DNA of 43,850 nt from NCBI GenBank assembly GCA_031255285.1, contig JAIRSU010000127.1, positions 1 to 43,850 on the forward strand, written 5' to 3'. The stretch is from Treponema sp. (lineage in GTDB: Bacteria; Spirochaetota; Spirochaetia; Treponematales; Breznakiellaceae). A program made the position numbers and the translations under genes. The notes under the pieces were generated by a model. That model searched no databases and was not told where the DNA came from. It worked only from the letters and a program-made list of their open reading frames with translations. Shown one piece after another: positions 3,973 through 27,480 of the stretch; position 1 is the first letter of the stretch, and every line of letters begins with the position of its first letter.

Positions 3973-5046
3973 CTATCGCTCCTTGTAATTTTTTTCAATC
4001 CAACATCGGTATGCGCCGCTTCGGACCCCGTCCACCCACTCTATGTTTCCAAGATACCAATCCACAGTCTTGACGAGCCCTTCTTCAAAGTCGATAACTC
4101 GTTCCCAATTCAACTCGCGCTTGATTTTCGTGCAATTCATCGCGTAACGGCGGTCATGCCCAGGCCTATCTTTGACAAATGCGACAAGTCGATTTAGGTC
4201 GTCCGCATCGGCGCCCACAGCCTTCGCTACAATTTCAATAAGCGTCTGTATGAGACGGATATTTTCCCATTCATTCTCACCGCCTATGTTGTAACTTTCG
4301 CCGATTTTGCTACATTGCAGGATTCGCCATACAGCCCGATTATGGTCGTCGACGTGAATCCAATCTCGCACATTCCGTCCGTCCCCATAGACAGGAAGCG
4401 GCTTCCTCTCTTTCAGGTTCAGTATCATCAAGGGAATGAGCTTTTCGGGGAACTGATAGGGACCGTAGTTGTTGGAGCAGTTCGACAGTGTAACCGGGAG
4501 TCCGTAAGTGTGATAAAACGCCATAACCATGTGGTCGCTTGAGGCTTTGCTCGCCGAGTACGGGGAGCGTGGGGCGTAGGGCGTCGTCTCGGTGAAAGCG
4601 CCTGTCTCACCGAGAGAGCCGTAAACCTCGTCTGTGCTAACGTGGTGAAAGAGAACTCCGTCCCGTCCCGCCCAATAGCGGCGAGCAGCTTCAAGCAGAG
4701 TGAACGTCCCCAAAATGTTCGTTTGGACGAAAGCATCAGGTTTCACGATGGAGCGATCGACGTGGCTTTCCGCTGCAAAGTGGACGACTGTGTCGATTCC
4801 GTATTTCTCGAATATGTCCGCAACTAACCCAACGTCTCGTATATCGCCCTGTTCAAAACAGTAGCGTTCTCCACCGAATTTCGCCTGAACGTCTGAAAGA
4901 CTTGCAATATTACCCGCATAAGTAAGCGCATCGAGGTTGATGATTCGCCCGCTGAAATCAGGCGTGTTTTCAAGCAGTAATCTGATAAAGTTACCGCCGA
5001 TGAATCCCGCGCCGCCTGTTACTAAAATATTCTCCAATCTTCTCAT
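3973..5046 (-). CDS. rmlB: dTDP-glucose 4,6-dehydratase
   Basis: This 357-residue extended SDR has the NAD-binding GGAGFIGGNFIR at residues 11-22, the dehydratase signature STDEVYGSLG, the catalytic YSASKASSDH (Tyr-xxx-Lys) and NNYGPYQFPEKLIP. It converts dTDP-D-glucose to dTDP-4-keto-6-deoxy-D-glucose in the cytoplasm. With rmlA upstream and fdtA/B/C downstream it supplies the Fuc3NAc/Qui3NAc branch; rmlC and rmlD homologues of the rhamnose branch are absent from this block. The 110 bp upstream contain short hairpins (such as TGACC/GGTCA) but no convincing promoter. AAAGGA precedes the ATG at 5046. Confidence 0.95.
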   Translation of the reverse strand: MRRLENILVTGGAGFIGGNFIRLLLENTPDFSGRIINLDALTYAGNIASLSDVQAKFGGERYCFEQGDIRDVGLVADIFEKYGIDTVVHFAAESHVDRSIVKPDAFVQTNILGTFTLLEAARRYWAGRDGVLFHHVSTDEVYGSLGETGAFTETTPYAPRSPYSASKASSDHMVMAFYHTYGLPVTLSNCSNNYGPYQFPEKLIPLMILNLKERKPLPVYGDGRNVRDWIHVDDHNRAVWRILQCSKIGESYNIGGENEWENIRLIQTLIEIVAKAVGADADDLNRLVAFVKDRPGHDRRYAMNCTKIKRELNWERVIDFEEGLVKTVDWYLGNIEWVDGVRSGAYRCWIEKNYKER

Positions 5047-5156: not shown

Positions 5157-6032
5157 TCAAAAACCTTCCGCGACTTGACGAAGATAGTCTCCATATTCGG
5201 TCTTGTATGATGAAGCGAGCGTCAACAAGTTATCCTGCGTTATCCATTGGTTTAGATACGCGATTTCTTCTACGCAAGATATAAACATTCCCTCACGCTT
5301 TTGAATCGTCGCGATGAAGTTAGAGGCGTCCAATAGCCCGTCGTAAGTGCCGGTGTCGAGCCACGCCATACCGCGTCCGAGCAGTTCCACCGAGAGTTTG
5401 TCCGCCGCAAGATAGGTGTTGTTGACCGCTGTAATTTCAATCTCTCCACGTGCAGACGGCGCGATGTTTTTTGCTATTCCCACGACGTCGTTGTCGTAGA
5501 AGTAAAGCCCTGGTACCGCGTAATGAGATTTTGGGCGCTCAGGCTTCTCTTCTATCGACAAGACTTTCCAGTTTGAGGAAAACTCTACTACTCCATAGGA
5601 TGACGGGTTCTTCACGTAGTAACCGAATACGACCCCGTTTTGCTCTGATTCCACCTTATGGACGGCGTTCTTCAATACAAGAGAAAAGCCTCTCCCAAAG
5701 AAGATGTTGTCGCCGAGCGTCAGGCAGACCGTATCCTGTCCAATGAATCTTTCCCCGATGATGAAAGCGTCCGCGAGTCCGCGCGGTTTATCCTGTACCG
5801 CATATTCAAACCGCATTCCGAGCCATTGCCCATCACCGAGCAGTTCCTTGAAGAGCGGTATATCTCGCGGTGTGGATATTATCAGAACGTCTTGTATCTC
5901 CGCCAACATCAGTACGGAAAGCGGGTAGTAAATCATCGGTTTGTCGTAACAGGGCAGCATCTGTTTCGACACTGCTCTGGTCAACGGGTAGAGTCGCGTC
6001 CCGCTCCCTCCAGCTAAAATTATCCCCTTCAA
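5157..6032 (-). CDS. rmlA: glucose-1-phosphate thymidylyltransferase
   Basis: This 291-residue protein matches full-length RmlA/RfbA. It has the nucleotide-binding [20 protein letters not shown] at the N-terminus, [21 protein letters not shown] and the C-terminal [14 protein letters not shown]. It makes dTDP-glucose from dTTP and glucose-1-phosphate, the first step of the dTDP-sugar branch of this operon. Its start overlaps the YfhO stop as ATGA (6032/6029), so translation is probably coupled. The next gene, rmlB, begins 110 bp downstream, the largest gap in this half of the operon. Confidence 0.95.
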
Positions 6033-8353
6033 TTTCCGTCGCCTCCTAACAAATATTGTTTCTTTTTAGATGCCATTTCTTTGACTATCAATGTTATTAA
6101 TGCAAACACACTCAAAATAACGCCGAACATTAACCCCGGCGCGGTATACATCAATTCCACAAGATGTTCTCCTTCTGTGGGAAATCTTGCTCCAATAAAA
6201 GCGTCTTCAAAAAAGCCTATTGTTTCTACCTTTTCCCCATCTATTTTGATACGCCACCCTTTACTGAATGGGATAGACGTCCAAAGATAATTAAAATCCG
6301 CGTCAGACCGCATTTTTGCTTTTATTTTCGTATCTTTAAACGAGATATATTCCGGTGCATAAGCTTTTAGCTTATCAAAGATTGTCTCAAAGATCGGTAT
6401 ATCAATGTAATATGAGTCGTCGACTCCTCTTTTGAAACATTCGTTATTCCCGCCTGACAACGCTTTTAACAGCGTATTCTCTAATTCGTAATGATTCTCA
6501 AATTTATCATTGATATGAACATTTCTAATCCCTTTGTTCACGGTATTTATTATATTTAAACTATGTTCATTTTTATAAATTTTGACAGCGCCATTTTGAT
6601 AAAGAGAATACGGATTCGCCTTATCTGCTCTATATGAAAGTATATACCGAATGCCCAAGAGAGAGTCTAAAACGGCGTTATTATCATTTCCATATAATGA
6701 AAATTTTCCTGTATACCTCAAAGAATTATTTTTAATAAAGAAATTATTAAGAGGATTATTTAAGATTGTATTTCCAGAAACGGAATTATATCCTATCGCG
6801 AAGGCATCGGTTTCTCTTCTGTAGAATGACTTCTCTATCCTAAATACATTTCGCTCACTTTCAGGAATATATTCTATTATTGATTTAACGTCAGAAATAT
6901 ATTTGTTATAAGCGCTAGATTCCTTACGTTCCTGAAATTCGTGCTTTCTTATTAAGAGAACGGTGTTAACTCCGAGTTCTAACCCTGTCAACGCAAATAA
7001 TCCTGCAAAAACGACAAGGCGTTGTAAATCACTTTTGGAAATAGATATAACAAAACAAAACGCTATAAGGAAAAATAGATTGGCTAAAACGACCTTTATA
7101 GATATGGGCATTTCATCGCTGTTTTCTAGTACTAATAGAACCGTTACTATTAAGATTAGCGTACTTGCTATATACAGGATATTAAAACTTTTACTATTAT
7201 TCTTGAAGTTTATAAGCGTCTTATAACCCCAAAACAAAATAAAGAACGATATGGCAAAAGAAAAACGCCCTTCAAACCATGAAGGTGCGTCAAAGCCGTG
7301 TATGGCAATATACAAAGGATTGATTGTCAGAGTACTGAAAATAATAAGTGAGAAGGCAATACCACACAGTTTTTCACGCTTTGTAGTATGTTGAAAAAAA
7401 GACAGTACAAACATTGTAAGCGGTAAAAGTCCGCAGTAAATAAACGGAACGCCTCCCGGTCCGTTTGTATCGTATGTTCCTATAAACAGTTTTGCCAATA
7501 ATTGTTTAATATTATACCTAAAATAGAAATTTAACGGTGTAACGTCCTGATACAGATTCCCATTCCTCATTGAAATTATAGTAGGTATGAGTACAAAACC
7601 AGCCAAACAAAAGGCAAGTATTGACGAAAATGCAAACAAACCGCTAGTTCTAAACAACTCTTTCTTATTTTTTCCGTCTATCAATAAGGCAATCTTGTAT
7701 ACGAAATACAAAACGGTAAAAGCGCAGACAAAATACGCCGTATACCAACTTGAAATCATACAGAGCGTCAACGATACTATGAAAAATAATGCGCGTTTCT
7801 CTTCAAATAATTTTTCAACGCCAAGTATGACAAGCGGCGTCCAAACAAATCCTGTCCAAATCGGCAGCATCCAGTGCATTGCAACAGCATACCCGCACAG
7901 GGCGTAGCAAATAGAAAAGAGAACGATATAGAGACTCCGTTTTATATATGATAGAAAAAGAGAAAAAGTTAATCCAGCGAATCCTATCTGCAATAAAATA
8001 ATAAAATATATAGCGTCTGTTAAATTTGACTGCGGAAAAAGAATTAAGACTAGATTAGTAAAGACTAAGACCCCGTCTCCAAGAAATAACGGATTCCCAA
8101 GACCTACCTTCCAAGTATATTGGAAATTATGCTGTCCTAATAATATACTTCGTTGATACGCTAGTTTATCAACAAACATATTACTGAGATCAGACGAGAG
8201 TATAGTCTTTGCACTATGCGGATATACCCCGTTGAACGCCATAGCAACTGCGAATAATATCATTGGGATAAAAAACGAGAGTAAGAAAATATAATTCTTT
8301 GATGCCCATTGCCGTAATCCGCTTAAAAAAGAAGAAGTGTTAGGTTTATTCAT
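6029..8353 (-). CDS. YfhO-family polytopic membrane protein, probable GT-C-type glycosyltransferase
   Basis: This protein of about 774 residues has some 12 or more hydrophobic helices over its first two thirds, then a soluble beta-rich C-terminal part and a last helix near the C-terminus. Recognisable YfhO-family pieces are [20 protein letters not shown] near the start, [20 protein letters not shown] near the end, and a helix followed by a Lys-rich tail. YfhO proteins are GT-C-like enzymes implicated in glycosylating surface glycopolymers on the outer face of the membrane. The track start at 8440 would overlap the upstream gene; the ATG at 8353 ([12 protein letters not shown]) is preferred, leaving a 29-nt gap. 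The substrate is unknown. Confidence 0.8.
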
Positions 8354-19825: not shown

Positions 19826-22186
19826 TTATACTCCTTCTCTATTATATTCCCGCGCTTGAACTGGCGGGCGTCGAGTCTCCGCGTCTATCTGCTCAAACCG
19901 CTTATAGATTCTCCCTACGTTATCGTCCGCGTACCACTTCTTTAGCTCGTCCAGAGATGTATTCACCCTGCCCACGTTATCGTCCACATACCACTTCTTT
20001 AATTCGTTTAGCTGCTGTTCAAAACTATCGAGCCGCTGGTTCAGAGCTTCCACAGAGCGTAAAAACACACGCGGCGTCAGCGAAGCTATTACCACAAACG
20101 GGAAATGACGGCGTCTCTCTTCCTGCCGCGCTTTCTCAATACAGCTCCGCCAAAAATTCTGGTATCGTAAGCCTAATTCTTTGACATAAACGCTCAACTT
20201 GAATTTTTTGAATAGTCTATACACTTCCATCGCGTACTGAGTACTTTCAGGTTCAGGACAACTGTCTATACAAGAAAATACGAAGTCAAGGCAATAAGTC
20301 GCGAATTCTTTTGACGCGGGAAGATGCTCCCCCTGGCTGATATGCAAAAGCGCTTTAAGAATATGTATCTGCTCCGCGCACCGCGAAACAGGGTCCCGCG
20401 CAATGGAATGCATGAGCGAATCTGGGCGGAAATGGCGGTAACGGTATAGTTTGTCGGAAATGACCGCCACGCCGTGCGCCTTGGGCATAGCTTCAAGCGT
20501 AAACAGCGCGTCCTCGCCGTACTTATATCTCTCATCAAAGCAGATTTTGTTCTTCGTCAAAAATTCCCGCTTGAAACAACACCGCCAGATATAAACTTTA
20601 AGATACGGTTTTATAAACAATGTCCGCGCGTCAATCGAGGGGAAATACTCGTCAGGCGTAGTCAAAACTTGATAATGCCAATCGCTTGCCCGCGGCTCGT
20701 CGGGAAACGGCGTAGTCCCGAATACAACAATATCTGGATTCTCGCGCCTTGCTATAGTTTTCTTCAAAACTTCCGCTGTGGTCTCGCATATCCAATCGTC
20801 AGAGTCGACATATATAATATATCGGCCCCGGGCGGCGGCCGCCCCCGCGTTGCGGGCGGCGGCCAGGCCTGCGTTTTCTTGATTGATAACGACGAAGCGT
20901 TTATCAGCGGCTGCATATTCCTCCAGAATCGACAAAGAATGGTCCGTAGAGCCGTCGTTTACACAGATAATCTCAATATCTTCAAACGTCTGAAACATGA
21001 CGCTTTCAAGACAAGAACGCAGATATTTCTCCACGTTATAGACCGGTATGATAACGGAAAAAAACGGACGCGGGGATTCGTCCTGCTCTCGCTCGCTCGC
21101 AATAAGGCTTAAATTACCCAACGGGGTTCTCGGCTCTGCGTATTTGAACCTCGCCCCTTCTTGCTCGTAACGCTCGATGAAACGCCATGTATGATACTCA
21201 AGTGGATCGTCCGCTATTCGCTTAATGTCTCGATATTTCCACCATTCTTTCTCAAAAGGCAGGTTCTCAATCCCGACTTCGTCTATAATCCGCTCGAAAC
21301 GCGGCGAAATTCGCTTCAAAAACGGATAACGAGTCTTGATTCCAAGCTTCTCATAATCCCATATACACGAGTCGTAGAACGCCGCGCTTTCAATTGCTGT
21401 AAGTTTCAATTTCCGTCTGTTCATCCGCAGGAAACGTTCTATTTCATCATATTCATCAAGAACGCAATACACCTTCTTGTCAAGGTTATTGACGGAGGAG
21501 TCTGCGTTGTCCTGGCGGTAATGGAGAAAGGCGTCGTATAGGCAGACCACACGGTCGACTGTAGCGTAGACCTTGAACGCGAAGGACGTATCTTGAAACG
21601 AGGCGCCCGGCGTCTCCAGAAAGGTTATCTTGTTATCAATCAGAAACTCGCGTTTGTAAATCGCCGACCATATCGACGGCTTCCGGTGAAAGAAAGAATC
21701 GCCTTCATATGTCCGCGGCGTTATAACTTTCCCGTCCTCTTCCCGAGTGAAGTACTTATGCAGTTTGTTCCGCTCCGGGTCGCTCCAATAAAACCAGAAG
21801 TTCGACTTGGCCACGTCGACTTCATTTTCCTCCGCCGCTACGTAGAGGGTCTCGAACATCTCTGCTTCTATGAAATCGTCAGCCTCTACGATGCCGATAT
21901 ACTCGCCGCAGGCCGCCGCTATCCCTACATTCATGGTCTGCCCATAGCCGGCGTTAGGCTTGTCTATCACCCTTATGCGATTGTCTTTCGCTGCATATTC
22001 AGTAATAATATCCATACAGCCGTCTGTGGACCCGTCATTCACGATAATAATTTGAATATCTCGTAGAGTCTGGCTTACCACACTGTCAAGACAGTGTCTC
22101 AAGTACTTTTCAGCGTTATAGACGGGGATTATAATTGATATTTTAGGTGTCCGCTCTTTTGATATATCAAATTCTTTCATAGCCAT
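19826..22186 (-). CDS. Bifunctional glycosyltransferase with two GT2 domains and a C-terminal coiled coil
   Basis: This 786-residue protein has two GT-A domains. The first (about 14-340) has ISIIIPVYNAEKYL, IVNDGSTDG and VEADDFIE. The second (about 375-690) has FSVIIPVYNVEKYL, CVNDGSTDH and VDSDDWIC. Both carry the nucleotide-binding and metal-binding acidic motifs, so both may be active, as in two-domain chain polymerases or dual transferases. The C-terminal 80 residues form a coiled coil in which ELKKWYVDDNVGRV is repeated as ELKKWYADDNVGRI. This is the first gene of the left block. The start ATG at 22186 has GGAG 8 bases upstream, and that Shine-Dalgarno sequence lies inside the left 50-bp inverted repeat. 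Confidence 0.9.
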   Translation of the reverse strand: MAMKEFDISKERTPKISIIIPVYNAEKYLRHCLDSVVSQTLRDIQIIIVNDGSTDGCMDIITEYAAKDNRIRVIDKPNAGYGQTMNVGIAAACGEYIGIVEADDFIEAEMFETLYVAAEENEVDVAKSNFWFYWSDPERNKLHKYFTREEDGKVITPRTYEGDSFFHRKPSIWSAIYKREFLIDNKITFLETPGASFQDTSFAFKVYATVDRVVCLYDAFLHYRQDNADSSVNNLDKKVYCVLDEYDEIERFLRMNRRKLKLTAIESAAFYDSCIWDYEKLGIKTRYPFLKRISPRFERIIDEVGIENLPFEKEWWKYRDIKRIADDPLEYHTWRFIERYEQEGARFKYAEPRTPLGNLSLIASEREQDESPRPFFSVIIPVYNVEKYLRSCLESVMFQTFEDIEIICVNDGSTDHSLSILEEYAAADKRFVVINQENAGLAAARNAGAAAARGRYIIYVDSDDWICETTAEVLKKTIARRENPDIVVFGTTPFPDEPRASDWHYQVLTTPDEYFPSIDARTLFIKPYLKVYIWRCCFKREFLTKNKICFDERYKYGEDALFTLEAMPKAHGVAVISDKLYRYRHFRPDSLMHSIARDPVSRCAEQIHILKALLHISQGEHLPASKEFATYCLDFVFSCIDSCPEPESTQYAMEVYRLFKKFKLSVYVKELGLRYQNFWRSCIEKARQEERRRHFPFVVIASLTPRVFLRSVEALNQRLDSFEQQLNELKKWYVDDNVGRVNTSLDELKKWYADDNVGRIYKRFEQIDAETRRPPVQAREYNREGV

Positions 22187-22193
22187 TTCACTT

Positions 22194-22243
22194 TCTCCTA
22201 CTCTCCCGTGTTTTTTTTCGTAAAAGTGCGCCTTTTACGAAAA
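22194..22243 (-). repeat. Left inverted repeat (50 bp) with recombination-site-like core and the left-block ribosome-binding site
   Basis: This 50-bp stretch is the exact reverse complement of 24103-24152. Reading toward the left block, it holds an arm TTTTCGTAAAAG, a 5-bp spacer GCGCA, the inverted arm CTTTTACGAAAA, four more A and a purine-rich CACGGGAGAGTAGGAG that includes the Shine-Dalgarno sequence. On the plus strand the core is 22215-22243 with spacer TGCGC at 22227-22231. The arms are perfectly palindromic, so orientation is set only by the spacer. Confidence 0.95.
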
Positions 22244-22253
22244 AAGTGAATGT

Positions 22254-22282
22254 AGATTACTATTTTTCCCCATATATGTCAA
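22254..22282 (-). promoter_or_regulatory. Outward sigma-70-type promoter just inside the left inverted repeat
   Basis: Reading leftward, TTGACA (22282-22277) is followed by a 17-bp spacer and TAATCT (22259-22254). The predicted transcription start is near 22247, four bases before the inverted repeat. It therefore points through the repeat into the double-GT2 gene at 22186. Spacer and flanks resemble the tRNA-Arg promoter at 35983-36011, which supports it being a strong housekeeping promoter. Because it lies between the inverted repeats, it would turn around if the segment inverts. Confidence 0.8.
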
Positions 22283-22764
22283 GTGGTTTTAGAGGCTTTT
22301 CTTTTCAAATATGTTTCCTGCTAGTCAGATAATTGAAACACAGGCGGGAAATACTGTATATTTCTCCTGCGTCCTACCAATACAGTTGCGGCGATGTAAA
22401 AGTATGATGGCACAAGATTTTATAGAGCAGAGTAATTACATCCGTCGGAGTGATTTTGACGGTGGACGCCTTGGACCTGACGGCAAAGGCGCGGCGGAAG
22501 CCAGCGCAACGAGGACATGAATAGGCGCGAGTACCTGAAAATGCTTTATAACCCTGAACCTACCCATCTGCATTTCCCATGACAACAATCGTTATGGTTC
22601 ATTATATTTCCGAGCCGCTTCTAATTATCAAATGACTTCATCTTCGTAATTCGTTAATTCTTTTCCTACAGTAATAGTAATCTGCTTCATCCGCCATCGC
22701 TTCTGAACGAGTTTGCCAAATCGTAAAAATTTAAGCCGTCAAATTTATGGTCAGGAGGTTCCCT
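22283..22764. other. Non-coding leader between the outward promoter and the recombinase gene
   Basis: About 480 bp without a convincing complete gene. Short coding-like pieces are visible on the plus strand, for example a 21-codon frame at 22517-22582 (MNRREYLKMLYNPEPTHLHF) behind GAGG, probably a decayed gene. The sequence AATAGTAATCT at 22673-22683 repeats the minus-10 region of the outward promoter in the plus direction, but its minus-35 partner (TTAATT) is weak. It could be the recombinase promoter. The recombinase Shine-Dalgarno sequence AGGAGG is at 22753-22758. Confidence 0.5.
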
Positions 22765-23922
22765 ATGAGAAAGGGTTTAAATATCTATAAAAGAAAAGAT
22801 GGAAGATACGAAGGCAGGTATCGGATTATCGACGAAGCGAGCGGTGAATCAAGATATCGATCGATGTACGGCAGAACGTTTTCCGAGTTACGGGAACGGT
22901 TGATAGAAATAAAGGGGCGGCTCAAACAAGAGCATCCTCATTCTGGTATTCCGTCTCTTTTGACGATGAGAGACGTTTCCAATTCGTGGTTAGAATCTTT
23001 GAGTTCTTCTATTAAGAAATCGTCTTTTTGGAACTATAAACGCAAGCTCGATAACCATTTGATGCCTGAGTTCGGCGATTGTAAATATACAGACTTGTCT
23101 ATTGAAAGACTTGAAGGCTTTGTTTTGAAAAAGCTTCTTCGCGGTCGTCTATCAGATGGCTCGGCGTTATCCGCAGGCTATGTAGGAGATATAGTGGTTA
23201 TGCTCAAAAGCATCGGTAAATTCGCCATGAAACAATACGGTTTTCCTAACATCATGTCTCTTATAGTCCAGCCGAAAGTCAGAAAAAACGACGTGGTTTT
23301 ACTCTCCAGAGCGGAAACAGCGCGGCTTGATTACGAGATTAAAAACAGATTGAAAGAAGACTCCTATAAAGAATACTCTATCAAATTAAGCGTATTCTTG
23401 AGTTTATATACAGGTATCCGTCTGGGTGAGCTGTGCGCCTTGAAATGGGAAGATATTGACCTCGGCGAGAGAATCATCCATGTAAGAAGCAGTTTACAAC
23501 GTATCCGCCGCTCGGATTCACAGACCGAAACTCTGCTCAAAAAGACGTCTTTGACCGAGCTAGTCATTACAACGCCTAAAACAGAATCCTCAAACCGCGA
23601 TATACCCATTCCAGACGCGCTCTTCCCGGTTCTCTTCTCCGCCTATTCTTCTGGTTTCGTGCTGAACGGACTCCTCTATCCTGTGGAACCGCGTCTTTTA
23701 CAGTACCGTTTCAAGAGCTTTCTCAAATCTATGCAACTACCGCCTATACGGTTTCATGCACTCCGACATATGTTCGCCACCAACTTCCTTCATCAACGCA
23801 GCAGTGACTATAAAACCTTGTCAGAGATTCTGGGACACTCAAACGTTTCTACCACCATGAGGAAATACGTACACAGTTCAGATGAAAGAAAAGCCGAATG
23901 TATGAAGCATTTTAATTTCTAA
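22765..23922 (+). CDS. Tyrosine recombinase (phage-integrase family), probable DNA invertase
   Basis: This 385-residue protein has an AP2-like arm domain at the N-terminus (GLNIYKRKDGRYEGRYR), an SAM-like core-binding domain (about 65-160) and a C-terminal catalytic domain with the full R-K-H-R-H-Y set: R219 (TGIRLGEL), K272 (TPKTESSNRDIPIP), H331 and R334 (HALRH), H358 (LGHSN) and Y368. It should therefore be active. The ATG at 22765 is chosen over the track start 22747 because AGGAGG lies 6 bases before it, overlapping the longer reading. The gene sits between inverted repeats with site-like cores, so it most likely inverts the segment that contains it. An integrative-element integrase is the alternative, but no other mobile-element gene is present. 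Confidence 0.93.
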   Translation: MRKGLNIYKRKDGRYEGRYRIIDEASGESRYRSMYGRTFSELRERLIEIKGRLKQEHPHSGIPSLLTMRDVSNSWLESLSSSIKKSSFWNYKRKLDNHLMPEFGDCKYTDLSIERLEGFVLKKLLRGRLSDGSALSAGYVGDIVVMLKSIGKFAMKQYGFPNIMSLIVQPKVRKNDVVLLSRAETARLDYEIKNRLKEDSYKEYSIKLSVFLSLYTGIRLGELCALKWEDIDLGERIIHVRSSLQRIRRSDSQTETLLKKTSLTELVITTPKTESSNRDIPIPDALFPVLFSAYSSGFVLNGLLYPVEPRLLQYRFKSFLKSMQLPPIRFHALRHMFATNFLHQRSSDYKTLSEILGHSNVSTTMRKYVHSSDERKAECMKHFNF

Positions 23923-23974
23923 TCCATCGACTCCATAGCATTGAGTTTCTCGTACGGTAGCTATAGAACTCTAA

Positions 23975-24051
23975 CCATGACGGCTTCACCATTCACTTTT
24001 AGCAAAGCTTTTTATTTCAGACGATTTGAATGAAAGAATAAGCCGTCATGG
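23975..24051. repeat. 12-bp inverted repeat downstream of the recombinase gene
   Basis: CCATGACGGCTT (23975-23986) and AAGCCGTCATGG (24040-24051) form a perfect inverted repeat with 53 bp between. It lies between the recombinase stop and the right 50-bp repeat. It may act as a transcription barrier that stops recombinase transcripts entering the right operon, or as an accessory protein-binding site. No T-run follows, so a classic terminator is unlikely. Confidence 0.6.
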
Positions 24052-24102
24052 GAGTGGTCAGAAGGATGAGTAAGTATAGATGTAGGAAAGAAGAGAGAGG
24101 GC

Positions 24103-24152
24103 TTTTCGTAAAAGGCGCACTTTTACGAAAAAAAACACGGGAGAGTAGGAGA
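24103..24152 (+). repeat. Right inverted repeat (50 bp) with recombination-site-like core and the right-block ribosome-binding site
   Basis: This is identical to the left repeat in opposite orientation. The core is 24103-24131, with arms TTTTCGTAAAAG and CTTTTACGAAAA and spacer GCGCA at 24115-24119. It ends exactly on the A of the rfbF ATG, so the first 33 nt of sequence upstream of rfbF, including GTAGGAG, are shared with the left operon. The arms could also be read as 11 bp with a 7-bp spacer. The 100 bp inside this repeat show no promoter comparable to the left one. Confidence 0.95.
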
Positions 24153-24931
24153 TGAAAGTAGCGATATTGGCGGGGGGGTTAGGAACGCGGCTGTCTGAAG
24201 AGACAGGGCTGCGCCCCAAGCCGATGGTTGAAATCGGCGGCAGACCTATACTCTGGCACATCATGAAGACTTACGCCTATTGGGGCTTCAACGACTTCGT
24301 CGTGCTCACAGGCTATCTGTCGCATATAATAAAGGATTTCTTCATCAATTATTACACGCAGTACTCGGATGTGTTCGTGGATTTGGGGGAGAATCGGATA
24401 GAATTGTTGCAACATCGCACCGAGCCGTGGCGGATAACGTTGCTGTATACGGGGACGGAGACGCAGACGGGAGGGCGGTTGTTGCGGGCTCGGGACACGC
24501 TTGATGGCGAGCGGTTCATGCTGACCTATGGGGACGGTGTGAGCGATGTGGATATACCTGCACTGTTGAAGCGGCATGAGACTTCTGGGAGAGCGGCCAC
24601 GCTGACCGCAGTGAAGCCCAGTGGGAAGTTCGGGATGCTGTCTCTGGAAACGGACGGAAAGATAAGCCGCTTCCAAGAAAAGCCCGACGGAGATGGAGGC
24701 TGGATAAACGGCGGATTCTTTGTGATGGAGCCTGAAATATTCGCCTATTTGCGAGACGGGGATACGACGATTTTAGAGCGTGAACCGTTAGAACGGCTTG
24801 CGCGAGAGGGACAGTTGAGCGCGTATAAACATCAAGGGTTCTGGCGGTCTATGGACACACTGAAAGACAAGAACGATCTGACGGCGCTGTGGCGTACAGG
24901 CGATGCGCCGTGGGCGCTATGGACGAGGTAG
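24152..24931 (+). CDS. rfbF: glucose-1-phosphate cytidylyltransferase
   Basis: This 259-residue protein matches RfbF length and signatures: AGGLGTRLSEETGLRPKPM, GGRPILWHIMKTYAYWGF, LTYGDGVSDVDI, GWINGGFFV and HQGFWRSMDTLKD. It makes CDP-glucose from CTP and glucose-1-phosphate, the entry point for CDP-6-deoxy sugars. It is the first gene of the right block. Its Shine-Dalgarno sequence and leader come from the right inverted repeat, which ends on its first base. In the present orientation of the segment no strong promoter faces it, so the block may be silent or served only by weak read-through. Confidence 0.95.
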   Translation: MKVAILAGGLGTRLSEETGLRPKPMVEIGGRPILWHIMKTYAYWGFNDFVVLTGYLSHIIKDFFINYYTQYSDVFVDLGENRIELLQHRTEPWRITLLYTGTETQTGGRLLRARDTLDGERFMLTYGDGVSDVDIPALLKRHETSGRAATLTAVKPSGKFGMLSLETDGKISRFQEKPDGDGGWINGGFFVMEPEIFAYLRDGDTTILEREPLERLAREGQLSAYKHQGFWRSMDTLKDKNDLTALWRTGDAPWALWTR

Positions 24932-24932
24932 C

Positions 24933-25976
24933 ATGAAGGAATTAGATTTTTACAAGGATAAAAGAGTTTTCGTAACCGGGCATACTGGGTTCAAAGGGAC
25001 GTGGCTGTGCCATATCTTATTGGAGGCTGGAGCGGCAGTGAGCGGCTATGCACTGGAGCCAGAGGCTGGATTGTATGAACAGACTGGATTAGACAGGCGG
25101 ATGCACTCAGTCATAGGGGACGTGCGGGATGAGGCGAAAATAACGGCAGCGCTGACTGAGGCGCGCCCCGAAGTGGTGTTTCATCTGGCCGCACAGGCTT
25201 TGGTACGGCGTTCTTATCGGGAACCTGCACTGACGTATACGACCAATGTCGTTGGTACGGTGAACATCTTGGAGGCGATACGCCGAATGCCTTCGGTTAG
25301 GTCCTTTGTGAACGTAACGACGGACAAGGTGTACGAGAACCGCGAGTGGTTCTGGGGGTATCGAGAAAACGAGCGGCTGAACGGATTAGATCCGTATTCA
25401 AACAGCAAATCGTGCAGCGAGTTGGTAACCGGGAGTTATCGTGAGGCGTTCTTCGACGGGGCTGATTCCACGGCGGTTTCCACCGCGCGGTCTGGAAACG
25501 TGATAGGGGGCGGAGACTATAGCGAGGATCGTGTCATACCGGACTGTGCGCGGGCGGTACGGGCTGGGCGTGAAATACTTGTCCGCAATCCCGGGTCGAC
25601 GCGTCCGTATCAACACGTTCTGGAGTGTCTGTATGGGTATCTATTGTTGGCGGAACGGCAATACGCGGACAGAAGTTTCGCAGGCGCGTATAACTTCGGA
25701 CCTGGCGAGGAGAGTTGTGTGCGGACCGGAGAGCTAGCCGCGCTTTTCTGCGAGGCATGGGGAGATGGCGCGGCATGGCGGGTGCAAGAGGACGAAGGAC
25801 CGCATGAGGCGAACTATTTGAAATTGGACTGCGCTAAGGCGAAAGAGGTTCTGGGCTGGCGGCCGCGCTGGGCGGTAAAAACGGCGGTAGAAAAAGCTGT
25901 GGAGTTCGCCAAACTGGATACCGACACGGAGAGAACCGCCTGTCTAGGGCGGCAAATTAAGGAATATTTTGTATGA
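24933..25976 (+). CDS. rfbG: CDP-glucose 4,6-dehydratase
   Basis: This 347-residue extended SDR has RVFVTGHTGFKGTWL at the N-terminus, the catalytic DPYSNSKSCSELV (Tyr-xxx-Lys), NVIGGGDYSEDRVIPD and RPYQHVLECLYGY, which are diagnostic of RfbG. It converts CDP-glucose to CDP-4-keto-6-deoxyglucose. The ATG at 24933 starts one base after the rfbF stop with GAGG just upstream; the longer track start at 24903 lies inside rfbF and is rejected. Both products of this pair feed the SDR and RmlC-like genes that follow. Confidence 0.95.
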   Translation: MKELDFYKDKRVFVTGHTGFKGTWLCHILLEAGAAVSGYALEPEAGLYEQTGLDRRMHSVIGDVRDEAKITAALTEARPEVVFHLAAQALVRRSYREPALTYTTNVVGTVNILEAIRRMPSVRSFVNVTTDKVYENREWFWGYRENERLNGLDPYSNSKSCSELVTGSYREAFFDGADSTAVSTARSGNVIGGGDYSEDRVIPDCARAVRAGREILVRNPGSTRPYQHVLECLYGYLLLAERQYADRSFAGAYNFGPGEESCVRTGELAALFCEAWGDGAAWRVQEDEGPHEANYLKLDCAKAKEVLGWRPRWAVKTAVEKAVEFAKLDTDTERTACLGRQIKEYFV

Positions 25977-26899
25977 AGAAAGCGATAGTAACAGGAGCGG
26001 GCGGATTTATCGGGCGTGCACTCACCGCCGAATTGTTGGCGCACGGCGTTGAAGTGGTCGCCCTTGACCTCGCGGGAATAGGTCTCGCGAAGAAGCTGCC
26101 GAACAGCGACGGCTTACATATCGTTGAATGTAATTTGTCAAGACTTCTTTCCCTGAGCGAAGTCGAGAGGGAGCCGCTTGCGGGCGCGGACGTGTTTTAT
26201 CATTTGGGATGGGCAGGTTCCGCAGGAGATGCGCGCGCCGATTATACTGTTCAGTTACAGAACGTACAATGGTCGCTGGACGCAGTGAATCTTGCGAAGC
26301 AAGTCGGCTGTGCGCGTTTTGTTGGGGCGGGGAGTATTATGGAAAAGGAGAGCGGTTTCGTAGGGAACGCTCAAGGCGCGAGGCCGGGCGTGGCTTATAT
26401 CTATGGGACCGCGAAGCTTGCCACTCACTGTATGACGAAACCGCTTACGGCGCAGTTAGGTATAGATCACGTATGGGCGATGATAACTAATGCCTACGGT
26501 GCAGGCGAGTCCTCGCCGCGTTTCATCAACGCGACTATTCGTAAGATTCTCGCGGGGGAACCCCTTGAGTTCACAGCCGGAACACAGAACTACGATTTTG
26601 TATATGTAACCGATGTTGCGAAAGCATTTCGGCTTTTAGGAGAAGCGGGGAAGCCGTTTTGTCAATACACATTGGGGAGCGGCGGAGTGAAGCCTCTCCG
26701 AGAATTCATCGAAGACCTAGGACGGACGCTCGCACCTGACTGGCCGCTCCATTTTGGGAACGTGCCGTATACCGGGGTAAACCTACCGCCAGAGGAGTTT
26801 GCGATAGACGATTTAGTGCGAGATACAGGGTGGGCCGCGGAAGTTTCATTTGTGGAAGGCGTGAGAATGACTTACGACTGGATAAAGGAGAGCGCGTAA
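25973..26899 (+). CDS. NAD-dependent epimerase/dehydratase (SDR), probable CDP-4-keto-6-deoxyhexose reductase or epimerase
   Basis: This 308-residue extended SDR has the Rossmann motif TGAGGFIG, DVFYHLGWAGSAG and the catalytic YIYGTAKLATH. It overlaps rfbG as ATGA. By position it should act on CDP-4-keto-6-deoxyhexose, either reducing C4 (as RfbJ-type abequose synthases do on their substrate) or epimerising. There is no DdhC/DdhD-type 3-deoxygenase gene in the block, so the product is more likely a 6-deoxyhexose than a 3,6-dideoxyhexose. The exact stereochemistry cannot be predicted. Confidence 0.82.
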   Translation: MKKAIVTGAGGFIGRALTAELLAHGVEVVALDLAGIGLAKKLPNSDGLHIVECNLSRLLSLSEVEREPLAGADVFYHLGWAGSAGDARADYTVQLQNVQWSLDAVNLAKQVGCARFVGAGSIMEKESGFVGNAQGARPGVAYIYGTAKLATHCMTKPLTAQLGIDHVWAMITNAYGAGESSPRFINATIRKILAGEPLEFTAGTQNYDFVYVTDVAKAFRLLGEAGKPFCQYTLGSGGVKPLREFIEDLGRTLAPDWPLHFGNVPYTGVNLPPEEFAIDDLVRDTGWAAEVSFVEGVRMTYDWIKESA

Positions 26900-26901
26900 A
26901 T

Positions 26902-27480
26902 ATGACCCGTGCATTTTCATTTGAGAAGACGCTGTTTGAGGGTGTTTTTCTGATAAAGCCGTTTGTTTCTGACGACGAACGCGGCTATTTCGTCAAAGAT
27001 TATTCCAAAGAATTGTTCGCAGATAACGGTATAACGCACGACCTGCAAGAAGTATTCTACACGTCGTCCTATAAGGGGGTAATACGAGCGATTCATTTTC
27101 AACGGGAAAAAGAACAGGCGAAATTGGTACGATGCGTAAAAGGGAGCGTGTTCGATGTGGTTGTGGATTTACGCCCGGAGTCTCGGACGCTAGGCCGATG
27201 GGAAGGCTTCTATCTCAATGAAGAGAACAAGAACGAGGTATTGATACCTGCGCATTTTGGGCATGGGTATCTCGTGTTGGAAGACTCTATTGTGTCCTAC
27301 AAATGTGCAGAGAGATTTTATGGAGAGTTCGACGACGGGATCAAATGGGACGACCCTGATATAAACGTTCAATGGCCCCTGGAAAGAGTAGGCGCTCTTA
27401 TCCTGTCAGAGAAAGATAAGAACTTACAAACCTTCGCGGAATGGAAGACGAAACGCTTGGAGGGTGTGGATGGCGTATAG
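26902..27480 (+). CDS. RmlC-like sugar 3,5-epimerase
   Basis: This 192-residue cupin of the dTDP-4-keto-rhamnose 3,5-epimerase family has GVFLIKPFVSDDERGYFVKD, the catalytic-His region GVIRAIHFQ, VVVDLRPESRTLGRW, IPAHFGHGYLVL and the C-terminal IKWDDPDINVQWP. The key His, Asp and Tyr positions appear present. In an rfbF/rfbG operon it should epimerise C3 and/or C5 of CDP-4-keto-6-deoxyglucose before reduction by the SDR. The start at 26902 is preferred to the track's 26830, with GGAGAG upstream and family-like N-terminus. Its 3' end overlaps the glf remnant. Confidence 0.85.
   Translation: MTRAFSFEKTLFEGVFLIKPFVSDDERGYFVKDYSKELFADNGITHDLQEVFYTSSYKGVIRAIHFQREKEQAKLVRCVKGSVFDVVVDLRPESRTLGRWEGFYLNEENKNEVLIPAHFGHGYLVLEDSIVSYKCAERFYGEFDDGIKWDDPDINVQWPLERVGALILSEKDKNLQTFAEWKTKRLEGVDGV

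Follow-up and report, generated by a model that had tools for sequence, protein, structure and literature searches.

The segment at positions 22194-24152 of the window, the analysed stretch of 43,850 nucleotides from the genome of a Treponema sp., is best explained as a self-contained invertible promoter cassette that alternates two surface-polysaccharide operons, a reading to which we assign a probability of just under 0.8. An arm-binding tyrosine recombinase encoded within the segment would bind two cores with palindromic arms, and strand exchange across an asymmetric spacer would invert the segment of about 1.86 kb. In the orientation assembled, the single outward promoter, located at the end upstream of the recombinase gene, would drive the leftward glycosyltransferase operon via a hairpin leader. 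Once inverted, the segment would place this promoter ahead of the rightward rfbF (CDP-sugar) operon, so that use would switch between the two surface-polysaccharide operons, and the operon at the promoterless end would receive no more than read-through of the recombinase gene. The evidence for inversion from the recombinase family as a whole is much stronger than that from the locus itself.

The segment is bounded by a perfect 50-bp inverted repeat (22194-22243 and 24103-24152), the arms of which are 100% complementary and 1859 bp apart. Each copy consists of a 29-bp core and 21 bp of outer leader, and the identity does not extend inwards. The left core (22215-22243) has the sequence TTTTCGTAAAAG-TGCGC-CTTTTACGAAAA, in which perfectly complementary 12-bp arms (22215-22226 and 22232-22243) surround a 5-bp spacer (22227-22231), and the right core (24103-24131) carries the spacer GCGCA (24115-24119). 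The left spacer TGCGC and the right spacer GCGCA represent one site sequence in opposite orientations, and because they differ at all five positions, the polarity of the sites is unambiguous. The outer leader extends to the ribosome-binding-site region of the glycosyltransferase gene on the left and, adjoining rfbF, to that of the rfbF operon on the right. A search of the genome (2.15 Mb in 131 contigs, 79% complete) with up to 3 mismatches returned these two copies of the core only and none away from the recombinase gene. The repeat reaches a score of 50, spanning inverted repeats of at least 25 were obtained for 0.07% of mismatched flank pairs, and a chance origin of the window's repeat is excluded. 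The repeats had been noticed by a sequence-only reading, whose description of palindromic arms and of two opposed sites directed by the spacer alone was confirmed, and they are best interpreted as inversely oriented tyrosine-recombinase sites with their polarity only in the spacer, an interpretation supported by the comparisons below.

The one gene between the sites encodes a tyrosine recombinase (22765..23922, plus strand; start taken from homologues, the mechanical ORF starting at 22747), so that the inverted repeats bound a segment together with a site-specific recombinase, as in invertons. The protein matches PF00589 and PF14659, and the residues R219, K272, H331, R334, H358 and Y368 are invariant among 48 sequences. 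Only tyrosine-recombinase families were matched, and the catalytic domain of serine recombinases (Hin/Gin) was not. The recombinase is not a XerC or XerD equivalog (60 bits vs a cut-off of 335 and 44 vs 330, respectively) and reaches 78 bits with a XerA-type profile, for which the cut-off is 220. In the AlphaFold model (pLDDT 87, pTM 0.66) the N-terminus forms a beta-beta-beta-alpha unit (strands 7-9, 15-22 and 29-36; helix 39-56), and the top fold matches in the PDB were the Tn1549 integrase (best) and the full-length lambda integrase. Three strands and a helix are the arm-binding layout of the IntTn916 subgroup (PMC8138268). Together with the core-binding and catalytic domains, the RKHRH pentad and the tyrosine, the domain and catalytic features of an IntTn916-type enzyme are present, and as modelled the recombinase is an arm-binding integrase of the Tn916/lambda type. 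The sequence-only reading likened the cores in size to those of dif and FRT; the enzyme itself is neither dif/Xer- nor Flp-like. Among tyrosine recombinases an arm-binding domain is described as strongly predictive of a role in phage or ICE mobility (PMC8138268), and one would not expect such an enzyme to be a dedicated invertase. An IntTn916-type mobile element with directly repeated attachment sites was not found here, as the sites are inverted and the recombinase is the sole gene held.

A single outward promoter is predicted, by consensus match and conservation, at the left end of the segment (22254..22282, minus strand). It is composed of the -35 hexamer TTGACA (22277-22282), a 17-bp spacer and the -10 hexamer TAATCT (22254-22259), the latter sharing just 3 of 6 positions with the consensus. 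The promoter is found in all four Treponema species carrying the locus, in which the -35 hexamer, the 17-bp spacing and a TARTCT motif are kept in the face of differences at about half of the synonymous sites. At the right end, promoter and terminator scans found neither an outward promoter nor a terminator. A weak candidate promoter of the recombinase gene itself (TTGAAA-N18-TATATT, 22333..22362, plus strand) has a -10 hexamer that is not kept in L010. As assembled, the outward promoter is predicted to face the glycosyltransferase gene (19826..22186, minus strand), which contains two glycosyltransferase-2 domains and is the first of a long leftward gene run continued by a polysaccharide pyruvyl transferase fusion; a promoter inside the segment facing a flanking gene is likewise as expected for an inverton. 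In the flipped state its predicted target is rfbF (24152..24931, plus strand), encoding a glucose-1-phosphate cytidylyltransferase (TIGR02623), which opens an operon continuing at 24903..27480 (plus strand) with genes for a CDP-glucose 4,6-dehydratase (TIGR02622), an NAD-dependent epimerase and an rmlC-type epimerase (TIGR01221). The distance from core to first gene is only 28 bp on the left and 20 bp on the right, too short for a promoter that would lie outside the cassette and close to the start of either operon. The predicted outward transcript begins just before the core, and its leader would therefore open with a 12-bp hairpin, which had also been anticipated from the sequence alone and is predicted at -15.7 kcal/mol (z -2.8).

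The same arrangement is present in three further genomes of the genus, designated L010, L011 and G009, the last of which is split over two contigs with the recombinase gene falling in the gap between them. The Treponema MAGs L010 and L011, nearest named relatives of the window genome, are taken by us to stem from termite gut, judging by isolate names and source projects. Their recombinases are 77-81% identical to that of the window. The Treponema recombinase genes show dN/dS values of 0.12-0.16 at a dS of 0.7-1.0 and no stops, and these low ratios indicate that the recombinase is maintained by purifying selection. The spacers in the four species are GCGCA, GCGCA, TCGCG and GATCA, in each case equal at both sites, and changes in the arms are largely common to both sites of one genome, a pattern of concerted site evolution. 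In the genome G003 only more distant rfbF homologues (53-69%) were found, and the glycosyltransferase gene had no match at E<=1e-80. An empty locus in G009 was considered and rejected, as each of its two contigs breaks off within the cassette, in one case in a tandem repeat. Such repeats, minisatellite arrays with units of 23/46/92 bp and 21 bp, separate the outward promoter from the recombinase gene in two of the four Treponema species (L010, 5632-5895; L109, which is contig C1 of G009, 1-208) and are seemingly absent from the window and L011.

The outer leader is the same at both sites of the window (21 bp; 22194-22214 and 24132-24152) and differs between species. L011 has an 11-bp outer leader (2770-2780 and 4538-4548) that is also the same at both of its sites and unlike that of the window, and L010 and G009 retain a different leader on the glycosyltransferase side. 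Because an inversion by itself leaves sequence beyond the exchange region uncopied, some further process must also act; the matching leaders indicate at least two events resembling conversion and suggest gene conversion between the two sites. They show contact between these sites.

This leader identity, which goes beyond what a simple inversion would exchange, and the identical orientation of all four Treponema assemblies count against inversion; no flipped copy, nor any further Treponema copy, was found in the 393 genomes sampled from the phylum and the 200 of the family. The single orientation would suit a fixed cassette, in which the glycosyltransferase operon is the permanent target of the promoter and the repeats are retained as a common leader hairpin with ribosome-binding site, and such an arrangement would also account for the predicted hairpin (z again -2.8) and for the inclusion of the leader in the 50-bp identity. 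We regard it as unlikely. A hairpin loop needs no asymmetric spacer that is equal at both sites yet changes between species, and the arms of L011 (inner TTTCRTGGAGG, outer CTTTCACGAAAA) pair poorly as a hairpin, yet both of its sites have changed together. The purifying selection on the recombinase also speaks against a fixed cassette, as does a pair of homologous loci that has inverted.

These are L034 of an uncultured Ruminococcus and L040 of R. flavefaciens YRD2003, orthologous loci that are exact inversions of each other and in which both orientations of the cassette are seen. The cassettes are collinear (1173-2561 vs 5789-7177, 93%), whereas both flanks run in reverse complement (86% along 2.1 kb and 93% along 0.64 kb), with the block junctions inside CGCAAATTTATATAAT. 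The outer bases GCC and TTC have shifted relative to the inner bases, which places the exchange within 16 bp, a stretch made up of the spacer with the inward ends of the arms. The same swap is seen between L025 and L040 at 72-78%. For the Treponema cassette, inversion is what we infer from this family-level evidence.

The recombinase was detected in 3 of 393 genomes of the spirochaete phylum and in 3 of 200 of the family, with no other genus represented among those sampled. Outside the spirochaetes, its relatives come almost exclusively from Clostridia (Ruminococcus and kin; 34-43% identity in tblastn), with related cassettes in dozens of gut Clostridia, and this distribution indicates horizontal transfer. 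Among the 74 loci whose flanks were usable, a spanning inverted repeat with a score of at least 16 is present at 63, compared to 2.5% in a null set for which left and right flanks of different loci were paired. Both sites share one spacer in 62 of 69 pairs, a proportion that is somewhat biased upward by the selection of loci for the presence of a repeat (the mismatched-flank null covers this bias), but spacers of different loci are identical in only 16 of 920 comparisons, with a mismatch of 0.68 that is close to random. An outward promoter scoring at least 10 of 12.5 was found at the recombinase-upstream end of 52 of 65 loci; the corresponding controls were 11/65 for inward promoters at this end and 0/65 for outward promoters at the other end. 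The one-promoter layout is thus a family trait. The proposal of the sequence-only reading that the layout serves inversion is borne out by the enclosed tyrosine recombinase with all catalytic residues, by spacers that match within pairs and differ between loci, and by the inverted clostridial orthologues.

A direct-repeat motif, CGTC-N8-GTC, is present on both sides of the recombinase gene in the window in the same orientation, as CGTCAAATTTATGGTC upstream against its Shine-Dalgarno sequence (22737..22752, plus strand) and as CGTCATGGGAGTGGTC downstream (24044..24059, plus strand). Across the family, 65 of 69 loci have it upstream of the recombinase gene and 45 of 69 have it downstream, and it is almost always on the coding strand (2 loci upstream and 0 downstream have it on the other strand); shuffled sequences give about 1.2 and 1.3 loci in total. 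In some loci the halves of the motif are separated by one or more bases fewer or extra. Judged by these statistics, the motifs are probably arm-type sites to which the recombinase would bind, and the upstream one may also be a putative operator of the recombinase gene.

Several clostridial cassettes sit between genes for a MobL relaxase or a T4SS coupling protein and LytTR response-regulator operons. This proximity to mobility genes and the patchy distribution, with one spirochaete genus and otherwise Clostridia, would be compatible with a minimal integrase-only mobile element that has the inverted repeats as its ends. Such an element is very improbable, as each Treponema genome holds a single copy at one conserved locus, excision is not expected from inverted rather than direct sites, and the outward promoter and per-locus spacers are conserved in the cassette. 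Almost no weight is left for the repeats being terminators that act in both directions, or members of an ordinary repeat family. Either might be suggested by strong palindromes at a place where two operons diverge, but the terminator reading was rejected because an A-run, not a U-run, follows the stem in outward transcripts and the terminator scan flags neither site, and a repeat family disagrees with the two genomic copies and with the association of repeats and recombinase at most of the homologous loci.

As an invertible cassette, the locus resembles the RecV switches (PMC5903667) and the inverton groups of PMC11892184 in its short inverted repeats, the promoter between them and the surface or regulatory genes outside. 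The flagellar and cwpV switches of C. difficile are inverted by RecV, which acts on several sites in trans (PMC5903667). Unlike these, the Treponema cassette has its recombinase inside the segment, a spacer private to the locus and an enzyme with an arm-binding domain. Recombinase and outward promoter are both inside the segment in the Salmonella Hin system as well (PMC5903667); Hin, however, is a serine recombinase, whereas the Treponema enzyme is a tyrosine recombinase and its cassette has outward operons on both flanks. With the IntTn916 subgroup, including the Tn916 and Tn1549 integrases (PMC8138268), it shares the three-strand and helix arm-binding domain, the SAM-like core-binding domain and the catalytic domain, but those integrases move elements between directly repeated sites, while here the sites are inverted and there is no other cargo. 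Inverton group 145 is cross-phylum and linked to tyrosine recombinase/integrase, relaxase, MobC and hsdS (PMC11892184). Its cross-phylum occurrence and its recombinase and relaxase links, which suggest horizontal spread, are similar to those of the present family, a likeness by description rather than an established identity, and its hsdS link is unlike the clostridial cassettes.

A self-encoded invertible promoter is already known from Hin and many invertons. The variant appears to be new in its combination of an arm-binding tyrosine integrase, private spacers, internal arm-like motifs and two divergent polysaccharide operons in a spirochaete; searches for arm-binding invertases and for spirochaete invertons gave no report of this family in the literature covered, from which most subscription journals were excluded. 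The family comprises dozens of arm-binding enzymes whose sites, spacers and one natural inversion indicate the flipping of their own promoter, not mobility. We tentatively propose, at somewhat less than even odds, that a widespread arm-binding integrase family has turned from mobility to self-inverting promoter cassettes with private spacer codes and internal arm sites that may set inversion bias and recombinase autoregulation, and that, after spreading between phyla, the cassettes were acquired by termite spirochaetes, where they alternate two polysaccharide operons. If true, the cassette would be a compact, portable flip module and a site-specific inversion switch in Treponema without earlier report in the same literature, determining which one of a pair of surface-glycan operons an uncultured termite symbiont expresses. 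With a spacer private to each locus, both cross-talk and the point of exchange become testable.

LytTR response-regulator genes were observed downstream of many clostridial cassettes (for example in the right flanks of L014, L063 and L072), and phase variation of the LytTR regulator is likely at such loci. The contig of L063 is labelled Alistipes and its cassette is nested among clostridial ones; it is probably mis-binned or a recent transfer. One MAG holds three near-identical cassettes (L066, L068 and L070). The spacers of L070 are unequal (CCGTC and CCACC) and the 55-bp repeat of L066 takes in outer flank, oddities hinting at cross-talk between loci.
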